Assembly: GCF_030512175.1 (NCBI RefSeq)
Contig: NZ_JAULBL010000001.1
Coordinates: forward strand, 620,001 to 684,000
DNA length: 64,000 nucleotides
Origin: Paeniglutamicibacter sulfureus
GTDB lineage: Bacteria > Actinomycetota > Actinomycetes > Actinomycetales > Micrococcaceae
Direction: 5' to 3'
The number at the start of each line of letters is the position of its first letter. The stretch's first letter is position 1. A program made the translations under genes and the position numbers. Below the pieces are notes generated by a model, which was given only the letters and a program-made list of their open reading frames with translations, had not been told where the DNA came from and did no database searches. Positions 8,540 through 12,252 of this stretch are shown piece after piece.

Positions 8540-8569
8540 CAGGCAGCCCCACGGGGAATTCCTGTTGGC

Positions 8570-8608
8570 GGGGCGGTGTACCGGGTTTGCTCCCCGGGAC
8601 ACCGCCCC
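8570..8608 (+). terminator. hairpin downstream of fumC
   Basis: GGGGCGGTGT (8570-8579) pairs with ACACCGCCCC (8599-8608), and a smaller CCGGG/CCCGG stem can form within the loop. It starts 31 bases after the fumC stop. No T tract follows, so termination is likely but not certain. Confidence 0.55.
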
Positions 8609-8740
8609 CGGCGTGTCTGCGCCGCCGAACCACAAAGGAGGATCTTTGAATCCCGCGGCACTCTGTCGGCTCCCAGGGGTAGGCTCGTTCTGTGCTTTCC
8701 AAGGGGGCAGGCACGAAGTGATCAATGGGGGTTGGTTCAA

Positions 8741-10522
8741 GTGGGCACCGGGCAAGCATGCACAACTGAAGGCTGCACTAACGAGGCAGCCAACAAGACG
8801 CGGACCAAACCAGCGTGGTGCCGGGACTGCCTCGAGGGCATCCTCAACGGGATGGATCTGGAGTCGGCCGAGCCATTCCTCGGCCCACGTGAACAGTGGC
8901 TGATCCGCTGTCGGGTGTGCAAAGCCGAATGCCACTATGTCCTGAAGTACCTGCTGGAGCTCAGGGAGAGGGATGAACCCGCATGCCGGCGTTGTTTCTG
9001 GATTCAGTGGTCAGCCAACTTCCCGATGGGCGCGGTATCCGGACCCCCCGTAGACATCGGGACGCAGGCCGCCCATCTGGCGGAGAACAGTTACGTGCCC
9101 GTCGAAGAACTCTTCACACTCCCCTGGGGTGAATACCCCATCCTCACCAGATGCCGATACTGCGGACGCCAGAAAGCTCAGCGCATGGGAGACATCGGGT
9201 GGGGCTGTTCGTGCGTCTCAAATCCCAACTCCGGGGCCAAGCAGGTGCCTGGAGGTCCGAAAAAGAAAAACCTGCTCATCGACTCCGATTCCCCTGCGCT
9301 CGCTTGGTGGGACGCAGAAGCTAACGATAAGTTCCTCCTGAACACGGTGACAGTACTGGCCCACCGAATCTGCGACTGGGCCTGCCCCCAATGCGGGCAC
9401 CACTTCAAAGCCAAAGTGCGGGACATGGCCGAGAGACCCACATGTCCGCCATGCAAAGACGAGAGGCTTGCCGCCTGGAGGGCAGAATACGAGCGGTTGA
9501 AAACCACACCAATCTCCGAGATCCCCGAGCTACTGATGGCTTGGGATGACGACGCCAACCCCTGGACTGAAGTGGTAGCAGGCTCCAGTCTGCGCAAGTT
9601 CAAGTGTCAGAACGGCCACCACCCGCGCGTCCGACCGTACTCGTATTACACCTCGGGCTGTCCGTCTTGCCGAGGCGCGGTAACTCTTGCCGCGGACAAA
9701 CCCATGCTGTCCGACGCCCTTCCAGAGATTGCCGGCCAATGGCACCCGACTCTGAATGGCAAATGGACACCGGCCAAGGTGGGACCCGACTCCAAGCGAT
9801 TGGTTTGGTGGCTCGCATCATGCTGCGGCCACGAATGTCAGGAGGAGGTGCACCAGCGAAACAAACGCCCCCGGTATCTGTGCCCGAGTTGCAACACCAT
9901 TCTGGATTCGCTCGCACGGTCCGACCCGGGTATGGCAGCAGAATGGAGCCCTGCGAACCCTGCCACGGCATGGCAGGTCCGTCCAACGGGTGCCACCGAT
10001 TTCATGCCGGCCTGGAACTGCTCCGTGAATCCCGAACACCAGTGGGAAGCGTCCCTTGCCTCACGTTACGCCGGGTCGGACTGCCCCGAATGCCGCCAAG
10101 CAGGCAAGTCGAAGGTCGAGCTGGACTACTTTGAGGCCGCCCGAAAAACATTCGGATCCGCCAAGTCCGGCCCGAAGCTGCGGCATAAGGCCTTTGCCCT
10201 GCGCAAGCATTGGACCGCAGACATCGTGGTCGAATCAAACGACGCCACGGTGGCCATCGAATACGACGGCGCCTACTGGCACGCACCCGAAGCCAAGAAA
10301 CTTGTCGATGAGGCCAAGAGCCGAGACTTGCTCGCCGCCGGTTATGTGGTGGTGCGCCTGCGCGAGGACAACCTGCCCTGTCTCGGCATCGATGACGCCA
10401 ACTACCTCGAGTTGCAGGTCTACTCGGTTGCCCCGCGTCCCGAGGAGACGCTGGCGGAGGTAATGCAGTGGCTGGCGACCGTATCCAGGTCAGGAATGAA
10501 GACGACTACGGAAGGACTTTGA
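8741..10522 (+). CDS. multi-zinc-ribbon protein with C-terminal PD-(D/E)XK (Vsr/DUF559-like) nuclease domain
   Basis: About 593 residues. The first ~455 carry repeated zinc-ribbon or treble-clef cysteine pairs, including C27/C30, C57/C60, C82/C85, C138/C141, C215/C218, C235/C238, C307/C310, C381/C384 and C448/C451, with intervening tryptophan-rich W...P motifs as in DUF4379-type repeats. The end (about 455-550) resembles very-short-patch-repair/DUF559 nucleases: TADIVV with D494, IEYDGAYWH with E507, D509 and H514, then the GYVVVRLRE strand. I infer a zinc-dependent nucleic-acid-binding nuclease. GTG 8741 has GGGGG upstream at about 9 nt; TTG 8732 is an alternative. The next gene starts 2 nt after the stop. 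G+C is lower than in the flanking housekeeping genes, suggesting acquisition. Confidence 0.78.
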   Translation: MGTGQACTTEGCTNEAANKTRTKPAWCRDCLEGILNGMDLESAEPFLGPREQWLIRCRVCKAECHYVLKYLLELRERDEPACRRCFWIQWSANFPMGAVSGPPVDIGTQAAHLAENSYVPVEELFTLPWGEYPILTRCRYCGRQKAQRMGDIGWGCSCVSNPNSGAKQVPGGPKKKNLLIDSDSPALAWWDAEANDKFLLNTVTVLAHRICDWACPQCGHHFKAKVRDMAERPTCPPCKDERLAAWRAEYERLKTTPISEIPELLMAWDDDANPWTEVVAGSSLRKFKCQNGHHPRVRPYSYYTSGCPSCRGAVTLAADKPMLSDALPEIAGQWHPTLNGKWTPAKVGPDSKRLVWWLASCCGHECQEEVHQRNKRPRYLCPSCNTILDSLARSDPGMAAEWSPANPATAWQVRPTGATDFMPAWNCSVNPEHQWEASLASRYAGSDCPECRQAGKSKVELDYFEAARKTFGSAKSGPKLRHKAFALRKHWTADIVVESNDATVAIEYDGAYWHAPEAKKLVDEAKSRDLLAAGYVVVRLREDNLPCLGIDDANYLELQVYSVAPRPEETLAEVMQWLATVSRSGMKTTTEGL

Positions 10523-10524
10523 AA

Positions 10525-11526
10525 ATGGGATTGGGCAAGAAACTGAAAGCGTGGCTCGGGCAAGGCAAAACGGTGGTGGAAGCCGAAAAGGCAGACACCG
10601 CATTGGCGCCCGTCGAACCCGTCCCGGCCAGACGTGGCGACGGTGATCCCGGGTCTTCCGACAACCAAGAGGCGAGGGCGTCCAATGGGGCCACCATCAA
10701 GCTGAGCATCACCATGGAGATGCCCCTGTGTGTGGAGCTTGCAGTGACCACGACTTTTGCCAAAAAAGCGGTTCGGTCCTTGGCTGACCATCGTGGGCTC
10801 AAGGAACGCGACGTGCTCGAATGCCAAGCCATGTTGCAGCGCGACCCATCCAACACAGCGGATAGGAACGCCGTGGATGTCGTTGTCGACGGAACCCGTG
10901 TCGGGTGCCTTCCCGGATACCTGGCCGCCCATTTCGTCTTGGACGCAGGGACCGCGGTACCTGTCCAATACCAGCTGCACATTTTGCGTGGGGAGGACAA
11001 ACTTCGAGCCAAAGCCTATGTATGGATGGGTGACGGCCAGCCGGAGTGGTCCCACGACCGGCAGAATCCCCCTGCGCTGACCGCGAGGGAACGAGTGCTG
11101 GAAACAGCGCGCGGCCAATCCGACCTGGTCAAGGAGGCACTGGCCGAAGGAGGCAGCCGAGCCGCGGAATTCCAGAAAGCCATGGTTAACGGTGTGCACT
11201 ACCTCCAACTGGCGGAGCCCATCAAACAACTCAAACGTGAAGGCCGCTTGAAGGAGGCTTTGCATTGGTGCTACGTTGCCATCGAGAGCGCTGAGAAAGG
11301 CCGTCAAGGTAGTATTCCGGCACCGGCATACACGCGAGAAGCCGCCATCGTCCACCGCAAGCTAGGTGAACGCAAAGAGGAAATAGCGGTCCTGAAACGG
11401 TGGCTGGAGTTTTGCCCGCCAGAATCCCGCGCCGGCAGCGACATCGGAATTCGTCTGGCCAACCTCGAGGCAAAGTCAGCGCCCCGAACCAAGCCAAAAG
11501 ATCAAACGAATCCCAAGGCCACATAG
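10525..11526 (+). CDS. HIRAN-like domain plus TPR-like repeat protein, partner of the upstream nuclease
   Basis: 333 residues. The N-terminal ~55 residues are charged and probably disordered. A central region (about 72-165) holds the HIRAN-like pattern RDPSNTADRNAVDVVV followed by VGCLPGYLA; HIRAN domains bind DNA ends or single-stranded 3' termini and are usually fused to helicases or nucleases. Residues ~225-300 form helical, TPR-like pairs (EPIKQLKREGRLKEALHWCYVAIE; GERKEEIAVLKRWLEF). GAAGGA lies 8 nt before ATG 10525, only 2 nt after the previous stop, so the two genes form one transcription unit. No catalytic residues are recognised. The HIRAN assignment is by motif only. Confidence 0.7.
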   Translation: MGLGKKLKAWLGQGKTVVEAEKADTALAPVEPVPARRGDGDPGSSDNQEARASNGATIKLSITMEMPLCVELAVTTTFAKKAVRSLADHRGLKERDVLECQAMLQRDPSNTADRNAVDVVVDGTRVGCLPGYLAAHFVLDAGTAVPVQYQLHILRGEDKLRAKAYVWMGDGQPEWSHDRQNPPALTARERVLETARGQSDLVKEALAEGGSRAAEFQKAMVNGVHYLQLAEPIKQLKREGRLKEALHWCYVAIESAEKGRQGSIPAPAYTREAAIVHRKLGERKEEIAVLKRWLEFCPPESRAGSDIGIRLANLEAKSAPRTKPKDQTNPKAT

Positions 11527-12252
11527 CGGCGCAACTCTTCCCGAAGGGCACCATCATCTGAGCCGCCACCAAGCCCAGTGGGGCCACAATCTAAGGCCGA
11601 GAGCACCCTCGACGTTGAGATATGCGCACCACCGCGTGTTGGTTCCCGCTCTGCGCCCTCACAGGCCGACGCCCGGTTCCCGACCAGCGCCATTGGAGTC
11701 TCCAGCAGCAAAGAGCGGCCGGGCGCTAGTTTGGTAGTCTTCTCTTCCACGCCTTTCCCAAGCAGGTCGTAGACGGTCAGGGACGTGCAGCTTTCTCAGC
11801 AGCCAAGTAGTCACATTCACTTGAGTCGTGTGAACCGGCGTGACCGGCCGGGGCCACTGGAACCATCCTAATCAGGGCGGTCTCCGGGTGCCGCCCCACC
11901 ACGGGCAATCCCTCCAAATGATGCCGGAAGCTACCTTGAGGAATTCCCGTGGGTCCACGCCCTGAGTCGTTGGTGCGCGCCTACGCGCCATGAGGGCTGG
12001 TTGGCAAAACAGCCCGGTGCGGTCCTCTTAGCGGCAAAGTAGACCTCGTTGACCCGGCGGTCCAGGAATTCTCTCGATGCCTCGGCGAAGCACAATTGGT
12101 CATAGTTTTGTGTGAACAAGAACGACAAAACCTTGAGACTGCCCCATCGATTTTTTACGCCAAGAACTTCCAGCATTTGCTCATCTTGTTATTTTCGACT
12201 TGCGACAAGTTGCGCGTTTTCGCATTATTCCCGGTGACTCGAAACACTTAAG
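11527..12252. other. gene-poor, lower-G+C stretch at the end of the accessory islet
   Basis: No convincing complete gene. G+C falls clearly below the flanks, especially around 12110-12240. A minus-strand frame (11931-12176, annotated separately) looks protein-like at its N-terminus. No transposase, tRNA or direct repeat marking an insertion boundary was seen. Confidence 0.6.
11931..12176 (-). pseudogene. possible gene remnant, 81-codon frame of unknown family
   Basis: Reads MLEVLGVKNRWGSL and continues with protein-like composition for about 55 residues before degenerating into an arginine-rich tail. Only a weak AAGATGAG precedes the ATG. I do not recognise the family. It could be the N-terminal stub of a deleted gene or a chance frame in low-G+C DNA. 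Confidence 0.25.

Follow-up and report, generated by a model that had tools for sequence, protein, structure and literature searches.

A gene for a probable multi-zinc EDxHD/Vsr-type nuclease inserted between two core genes of Paeniglutamicibacter sulfureus: a candidate for mobile defence cargo

The 64,000-nucleotide stretch of Paeniglutamicibacter sulfureus DNA analysed here (the window) carries a lineage-specific insertion between two core genes, and the first gene in it, gene A, encodes a protein that, from its sequence, is probably a DNA-cutting enzyme. We favour, with a probability of about one half, the reading that A is a stand-alone endonuclease with homing-endonuclease architecture, carried as defence cargo. 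Its array of treble-clef/zinc-ribbon modules would read a long stretch of DNA, which its C-terminal EDxHD/Vsr-type PD-(D/E)XK domain would cut with metal ions, and its most likely use would be the cutting of incoming phage or plasmid DNA bearing its site. Since such a site would be both long and rare, we propose that a protecting methylase is unneeded. The gene lying 2 nt behind, gene B, may assist A or act to a similar end by itself. The features are the following:

8628 to 12240, no strand: inserted segment of ~3.6 kb with fumC on one side and the tetR promoter region on the other (genus comparison, G+C)
8741 to 10522, plus strand: gene A, 593-aa multi-zinc EDxHD/Vsr-type endonuclease of predicted activity (ORF, Pfam, alignment, fold)
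8741 to 10093, plus strand: N-terminal zinc-module array of A, residues 1-451 (nine CxxC pairs, further Cys, DUF4379, Foldseek)
10100 to 10492, plus strand: C-terminal PD-(D/E)XK nuclease domain of A, residues 454-584 (invariant residues)
10525 to 11526, plus strand: gene B, 333-aa HIRAN plus TPR-like protein (ORF, Pfam, family profile, Foldseek)
10729 to 11025, plus strand: HIRAN-fold domain of B, about residues 69-167 (Foldseek, family profile)
11185 to 11490, plus strand: TPR-like helical domain of B, residues 221-322 (most conserved stretch of the B family)
11527 to 12240, no strand: 3′ part of the insert, 58.7% G+C, no recognisable gene

The open frame of gene A starts with GTG, in agreement with the starts chosen for its relatives. 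A preliminary description of this DNA had counted at least nine CxxC pairs in a 593-residue protein, and there are exactly nine, among 30 cysteines (mean 1.5 and maximum 7 in 2000 shuffles of the protein). Pfam finds DUF4379 in four stretches (E 1.8e-26, the best at residues 330-385), and the predicted fold is matched by Foldseek to the DUF4379 proteins 6yxx and 6sga, so that tandem modules of a putative DNA-binding type precede the nuclease. The latter has the invariant residues E460, D494, E507, D509, H514, K519, D523 and K526; the four proposed earlier as a Vsr/DUF559-like site (D494, E507, D509, H514) are all present and, together with 16 cysteines, do not vary in any of the 31 aligned sequences, the window's own included (partial relatives were excluded and the 259-aa fragment from locus L022 was dropped beforehand). 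The Vsr-type family MTES_1575 is matched at E 1.6e-4, under its cut-off, the catalytic domain matches the structure of I-Bth0305I (3r3p), and PHROG 559, an endonuclease, is matched at E 1.6e-12, and PADLOC gives a single, weak match, named ‘homing endonuclease’, at E 0.013. The nuclease assignment is thus supported by Pfam, alignment and fold matches.

The nearest described architectures come from phages. According to the sections available from the source (PMC12350094), four phage group II introns encode 3-5 CapR/DUF4379/DUF723-like repeats plus an EDxHD/Vsr domain, and these proteins form a large new outgroup of homing endonucleases. In both these proteins and A, repeated modules of ~60 aa are followed by a C-terminal EDxHD/Vsr nuclease of ~100 aa; A differs in being free-standing, bacterial and 593 aa long, with a Cys-rich N-terminal part conserved in its lineage, and in that some of its relatives sit in defence islands. 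The EDxHD enzyme I-Bth0305I, in the available part of its description, is multi-domain, with a target almost 60 bp long (PMC3943268); its structure is labelled as a mobile intron protein, whereas A has a zinc array and lies outside any intron. With REase_MTES_1575/DUF559 the likeness is in the nuclease core, at the sub-threshold level given above, and in the portion of the source at hand MTES_1575, unlike A, shares a very large polypeptide with helicase, HEPN, transglutaminase and wHTH domains (PMC3710099).

Gene B opens with an ATG 2 nt after the stop codon of A, and its frame of 333 residues is confirmed. The HIRAN-like pattern ascribed to it is weak when B is taken alone (E 0.0033, scoring 17.7 bits where the cut-off is 24.7), but holds for its family: PF08797 is matched by all but one of its ten members within E 0.1, the best at 6.3e-5, and the family profile matches the HLTF HIRAN domain at E 0.0046. 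The predicted fold has the same HLTF domain (4xzg) as its top Foldseek match, at E 5.9e-4, and the helical repeats noted before correspond to the TPR-like domain. In the alignments, B keeps the Asn and the Asp, and not the Tyr, of the HLTF ‘NPYD’ stretch, whose residues have known roles. B is thus a probable binder of DNA ends or of single-stranded DNA. As far as the consulted portions of the literature go, its HIRAN fold is common to HLTF, HipN/HipL and HipA-HIRAN clusters (PMC8262856, PMC11706625), from which B differs in its C-terminal TPR domain and in having no kinase partner in the insert. A phage origin of B was rejected, with no match at E 0.01 in 50,697 phage records and no confirmed match in viral contigs.

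The insert begins after fumC and its terminator hairpin, which end at ~8627. In a comparison with 13 relatives from the genus, the same-species genome G013 aligned up to 8541 and again from 12245, with ~125 bp in between, and the alignment of G007 ran through 8627; the gap between fumC and tetR measured 50-259 bp in 11 of the 13 relatives fetched, the other 2 having other genes there. The earlier placement in a core-gene spot therefore stands as far as core genes flank the insert, but what it replaces is a short intergenic stretch, not genes. The lower G+C content also claimed for it was borne out (60.1% against 65.5% for the window), and none of 1064 same-size windows, those touching the insert excluded, was as low. 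No direct repeat of the target-site-duplication type was found at the two ends, and there is no integrase in the insert. Its 714-bp tail has no plasmid match, and an 81-aa minus-strand ORF in this tail occurs in its own genome only (1 of 120) and has no Pfam match; a scan for promoters and terminators gave signals no higher than in shuffles.

As the preliminary description had noted, neither a methylase nor a toxin-antitoxin partner is present, the insert holding only two recognisable genes. A restriction-modification pair was rejected, as there is no methyltransferase gene, and so was a HipA-HIRAN toxin-antitoxin system of the HipIN type, as the insert has no HipA-like kinase gene; the neighbours of other B genes were inspected by eye only. 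Ordinary DNA repair, where A would nick DNA at mismatches or lesions in a Vsr-like manner, helped by the HIRAN protein, would suit the Vsr-type fold, and the available part of one source knows HIRAN from replication-fork repair (PMC8262856). We consider it very improbable for a gene that is patchy, horizontally moved and, at E 1e-40, absent from all 14 other genomes of the genus, with the methylase missing from the insert. The zinc array of Vsr, moreover, is far smaller than that of A.

In the gene tree of A, orders and families are intermixed, and in Actinobacteria A travels as a lone accessory gene, its relatives being located on plasmids, on elements with an integrase and in defence islands. 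The annotated full-length relatives on the plasmid records examined are named ‘zinc-ribbon domain-containing protein’ only. Phages hold few of them, with partial matches in 2 of 50,697 records and three weak partial loci in viral contigs. Defence-type genes were neighbours at 7 of 41 other loci read, a minority. At one of these (L014), the Wadjet II genes JetD-A-B-C, of which JetD is cut by the locus end, lie beside the nuclease, the stop codon of JetC overlaps its ATG, and a Cas3 gene follows further along. Elsewhere there are a CBASS effector and cyclase (L007), a type IV restriction-type protein (L016; PADLOC mREase_IV E 4e-52, Orf5 E 9e-86), the C-terminal part of DRT UG33 (L012), AbiD (L142), a type II methylase ~2 kb away (L018) and a GmrSD_N-HNH protein (L143); an integrase adjoins the nuclease at L145, and L021 has a sub-threshold integrase match.

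In a set of 19 loci, defence genes among the families listed occur at 4 (L007, L012, L014, L016) against 0 of 19 controls (one-sided Fisher P 0.05), a marginal excess that counts the best 25 of 196 PADLOC families at nuclease loci and the best 25 of 69 at controls, so that weaker control matches (single-member, worse than E 2.5e-40) are hidden, and that compares accessory genes, which cluster anyway, with random, mostly core-like loci. PADLOC matches to UzuA and PDC-S39 were not tied to a locus and were left out of the counts, and in the locus assignments and in all checks beyond the 19 loci the proteins were chosen by eye. PADLOC or Pfam supplied the Jet, CBASS, Orf5/mREase_IV, AbiD, DRT, MTase and GmrSD_N labels, whereas the remaining neighbours were named by reading the raw sequence; the codon-usage gene caller is home-made, failed to pick out gene A in the window and may give wrong starts. 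The scan of genome contigs reaches close relatives only, and the VIA-align lists consist mostly of rows of one domain, so the absence of a family from them proves nothing. No neighbour family is common to more than 5 of 40 loci. The neighbourhood of A is thus recurrent accessory DNA with defence genes, integrases and plasmids, and the suggested defence-island location holds in part, as a defence-like context for the nuclease at a minority of loci.

The preliminary description had seen in the pair a division of recognition and cutting between two proteins. A, however, has its own long zinc-module array, and in the family and order samples only 1 of 15 other A-bearing genomes (G044) has a B-type gene, so a fixed two-gene cassette was rejected as a general rule. 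We regard as unlikely a true two-protein module, in which the HIRAN-TPR protein B would detect ends or single-stranded stretches in DNA that is invading or broken, and recruit or license A. The 2-nt gap in the window speaks for it, as do HIRAN genes near A in three other genomes: in G044 B adjoins A, 170 bp apart and convergent, and G259 and G340 have another HIRAN gene at 1.3 kb and 5 kb from A, respectively (distances taken by hand from coordinates). Such proximity exceeds random expectation, with three genes observed within 6 kb where 0.076 would be expected (P 7e-5), and two observed versus 0.025 expected for a 2-kb limit (P 3e-4), in a Poisson test that assumes random placement, ignores the clustering of accessory genes and uses a 6-kb limit chosen after G340 was seen. 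But among 40 other genomes or records that have a relative of A, these are just three, each arranged differently; the HIRAN protein of G259 was missed by the B search, and B fits the HIRAN model far less well than the protein of G340. The nucleases with a HIRAN gene nearby that are in the tree (window, G044, G259) form no clade: the tree needs three label changes, each of them required by starred branches. The B of G044 is most closely related to one from G284, where no A was matched at 1e-40. Across genomes, the co-occurrence of A and B is not significant (P 0.29). Adjacency elsewhere, whose complete absence the preliminary description had named as refuting its reading, does exist and is commoner than random placement gives, although the cases are few and their gene order differs. 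The A-B pairing is loose and was probably assembled more than once, and B, a HIRAN-TPR protein that moves separately, is not an obligatory partner of A.

The main rival of defence cargo is a selfish, free-standing homing endonuclease, with A cutting the empty fumC-tetR allele and copying itself and B by recombination repair, which we deem possible, though at odds well short of even. A shares the architecture of phage HEGs, has the I-Bth0305I and PHROG 559 matches, and lies in an intergenic insertion whose empty allele exists in the same species, with no integrase or duplicated ends. Moreover, the nucleases of L078 and L079 (54.5% identical; G064 and G256, from different genera) lie 5′ of the same core operon, with six neighbours matching at 67-88%, which hints at a preferred site, and among the 41 loci flanking genes are also shared by L139/L141, L021/L022 and the Rhodococcus group L015/L112/L113. 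However, with respect to the operon the G064 and G256 nucleases point in opposite directions, and they also differ in their distance from it, a pattern not predicted by direct homing; other pairs of loci with at least two neighbours in common seem to owe them to IS or paralogue matches. The insert is intergenic and has no Rfam match, so that A lies outside any intron or intein and an intron-borne gene was rejected; free-standing HEGs exist, and the intergenic location is therefore compatible with homing. The rarity in phages also counts against homing, and the position of a relative in the Wadjet operon is not what would be expected of an HEG. For defence cargo we counted the domains and fold, the invariant site, the phage HEG architecture, the defence neighbours, the integrases and the mixed gene tree; against it, the minority of defence neighbours and their marginal excess, the homing endonucleases as nearest described architectures, the weak PADLOC homing match, the lack of a common neighbour family and the operon shared by L078 and L079.

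More tentatively, within the defence-cargo reading, an actinobacterial homing-like lineage might have turned into a methylase-free, single-protein restriction enzyme whose zinc array reads a site too long and rare to need self-protection, carried alone or as an add-on to known systems (a fifth Wadjet gene) and sometimes coupled to a HIRAN sensor of DNA ends. If the relatives of A are defence enzymes, homing endonucleases would be linked to bacterial immunity, and a one-gene restriction mechanism without a methylase would be available, as well as a natural modular zinc-finger nuclease scaffold. Treating the HIRAN partner as optional avoids naming a false two-gene system, and the Wadjet operon offers a direct, testable entry point.

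The preliminary description had presented genes A and B as a two-gene cassette, possibly a defence or DNA-processing module, and both open frames lie where it had placed them, within a segment inserted between fumC and a tetR gene:

8741-10522, plus strand, gene A, open frame of 593 amino acids
10525-11526, plus strand, gene B, open frame of 333 amino acids
about 8628-12240, no strand, insert as delimited by the alignments of relatives

The protein encoded by A has 30 cysteines in total and exactly nine CxxC pairs, where at least nine had been announced, and shuffling it 2000 times gives 1.5 such pairs on average and never more than 7. Its Pfam match to DUF4379, which we take to be a probable treble-clef zinc finger, covers four stretches (E 1.8e-26), and residues 490-543 give a sub-threshold match to the Vsr-type family MTES_1575, in agreement with the nuclease assignment proposed earlier. 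Gene B alone shows a weak Pfam match to HIRAN and a weaker one still to TPR. Of ten aligned family members, a HIRAN match at E up to 0.1 is present in nine (the best at 6.3e-5) and a TPR_14 match in six, and the family profile reaches the HIRAN domain of HLTF at E 0.0046. The same domain is the top Foldseek match (E 5.9e-4) of a model of B built from 8 sequences (pLDDT 71.7), in which residues 221-322 are predicted to resemble TPR domains, so that the HIRAN-like pattern first read in B is borne out. Ahead of a disordered linker, B (residues 1-12) and its relatives also carry a short common N-terminal motif, MG-F-L-x-R-x-F in form, which may be a helix for targeting or docking.

A nuclease match at E 1e-40 was absent from all 14 other genomes of the genus searched. 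The fumC region could be compared in 13 of them, and in 11 the alignments at the end of fumC and on the tetR side are separated by just 50-259 bp (around 125 bp in the same-species genome, G013). The other two, G004 (L108) and G002 (L110), carry other genes there, which indicates that the spot (window 8541-12245) tolerates insertions and suggests a small insertion hot spot. Since one relative, G007, is alignable past the fumC terminator as far as 8627, the insert would begin at about 8628; no target-site duplication was seen at its ends. Its lower G+C, already remarked upon, is confirmed at 60.1% versus 65.5% for the window, all 1064 windows of equal length outside the insert are higher, and GC3 is 0.72 in A and 0.67 in B versus 0.90 in fumC. 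The 714 bp after B (11527-12240; 58.7% G+C), in which no recognisable gene or relative was found, may be what is left of a third gene.

The claim that A and B form a cassette holds only in part. Of the 295 genomes in the family sample, 8 have A and 15 have B; of the 396 in the order sample, 10 have A and 7 have B. The co-occurrence of A and B genomes is not significant (P 0.29). The two samples together contain 15 genomes with A besides that of the window, and only one of these, G044, has both genes, convergent and 170 bp apart. Searching 52 loci with B by tblastn gave, apart from the genome of the window and L003, a locus with B alone, only matches to the C-terminal module (L044, L046). When 40 other genomes and records containing a relative of A, a few of them partial, were searched with a HIRAN profile at E up to 1, three had a HIRAN gene no more than 6 kb from A: G044; G259, where a different HIRAN protein is encoded 1.3 kb upstream on a plasmid; and G340, at 5 kb. 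Under random placement 0.076 such genes would be expected within 6 kb (P 7e-5), a limit picked after G340 had been seen, and 0.025 versus two observed within 2 kb (P 3e-4); accessory genes, however, cluster in any case. The association is real enough to record, yet loose, and it has probably been assembled more than once. In the gene tree, three label changes are required to account for the three HIRAN-near nucleases (window, G044, G259), and the B closest to that of G044 (75.8% identical) comes from G284, a genome with no A match at 1e-40.

The neighbours of B-type genes differ from locus to locus, and such genes are also found in 17 plasmid records, 13 of them from Clavibacter. Several of the 15 family genomes hold them as pieces only, and the tblastn pieces at L089, L093, L094 and L095, apparently broken or fragmentary, fit an accessory gene that is being gained and lost. 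The C-terminal TPR-like module is also found within a protein annotated as a restriction endonuclease, beside CRISPR genes, in Halomontanus (L118), and in Rhodococcus (L044, L046), where other partial relatives of the nuclease lie some 2.5 kb away.

The proposed role in defence was examined through the seven genes closest to the nuclease at 19 loci (132 proteins) and through 132 proteins of 19 random loci from the same genomes. Among the matches listed, defence genes occur in 4 of 19 nuclease loci and no control locus, a marginal difference (one-sided Fisher P 0.05). The strongest PADLOC families at nuclease loci (best 25 of 196) are JetA/B/C/D, a CBASS cyclase and endonuclease effector, Cas3, Orf5, UzuA and PDC-S39. 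Those in controls (best 25 of 69) are SspA, DndA, PD-T4-6 and mad6 as single-member families, and mad3, mad8, AriA and a few others with two to four members, the named ones being presumably housekeeping-type matches. Overall, defence genes picked by eye occur in 7 of 41 other A loci examined. In Allokutzneria sp. NRRL B-24872 (L014, 1-9794) A is the overlapping fifth gene of a Wadjet II operon, JetD-A-B-C, where the stop of JetC overlaps its ATG (TGATG), JetD is cut by the locus end and a Cas3 gene lies about 4 kb beyond, downstream. Arthrobacter sp. ATA002 (L007) has CBASS 0.3 kb upstream of A, and in Ornithinimicrobium (L016) 0.5 kb separates A from a type IV restriction-type gene. L012 has the C-terminal part of a UG33-type DRT reverse transcriptase, and L142, L018 and L143 have AbiD, type II methylase and GmrSD_N-HNH genes, respectively.

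The chief rival explanation, that A is a selfish free-standing homing endonuclease, is favoured by its architecture, by its intergenic insertion and by the insertion sites common to some loci. Across 40 loci, no family of neighbours recurred in more than 5, and closer comparison of 41 loci gave four groups with shared flanks. L078 and L079, from different genera (G064, G256), have six common neighbours (67-88%) and nucleases 54.5% identical, 5' of the same operon in opposite orientation, with no gene in common on the side away from this core operon. In L139 and L141 (G340, G603), from two congeneric species, the nuclease has the same position within a common element, with a gene encoding a small membrane-type protein beside it. 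The common flanks of L021 and L022 include an integrase-like gene (a sub-threshold match in L021), and the fourth group consists of the Rhodococcus plasmid-type loci L015, L112 and L113. Remaining pairs with two or more common neighbours look like IS or paralogue matches. These groups count partly against the defence reading, and a preferred site or hot spot would fit them. Homing is disfavoured by the scarcity of A relatives in phages, by the opposite orientations at the only core site in common, and by the position in an operon after the Wadjet genes. On the linear plasmids pRHL2 and pRHL3 of Rhodococcus jostii RHA1 (L112, L113) zinc-ribbon nucleases lie near phosphoadenosine phosphosulfate reductase-family genes, with a second zinc-ribbon protein on pRHL2.

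A tyrosine integrase adjoins A in L145, and the A gene tree unites different orders, such as Ornithinimicrobium with Nocardioides (77% identical). Among the matches listed from the open-access PMC literature, no title or abstract beginning concerned a stand-alone DUF4379-EDxHD nuclease of bacteria located in defence islands. The best-supported reading is that A would be an endonuclease of homing-endonuclease architecture that moves as an accessory gene and is probably retained for defence. A recognition site that is long and rare would account for the missing methylase. B may assist A, but is dispensable in most relatives.
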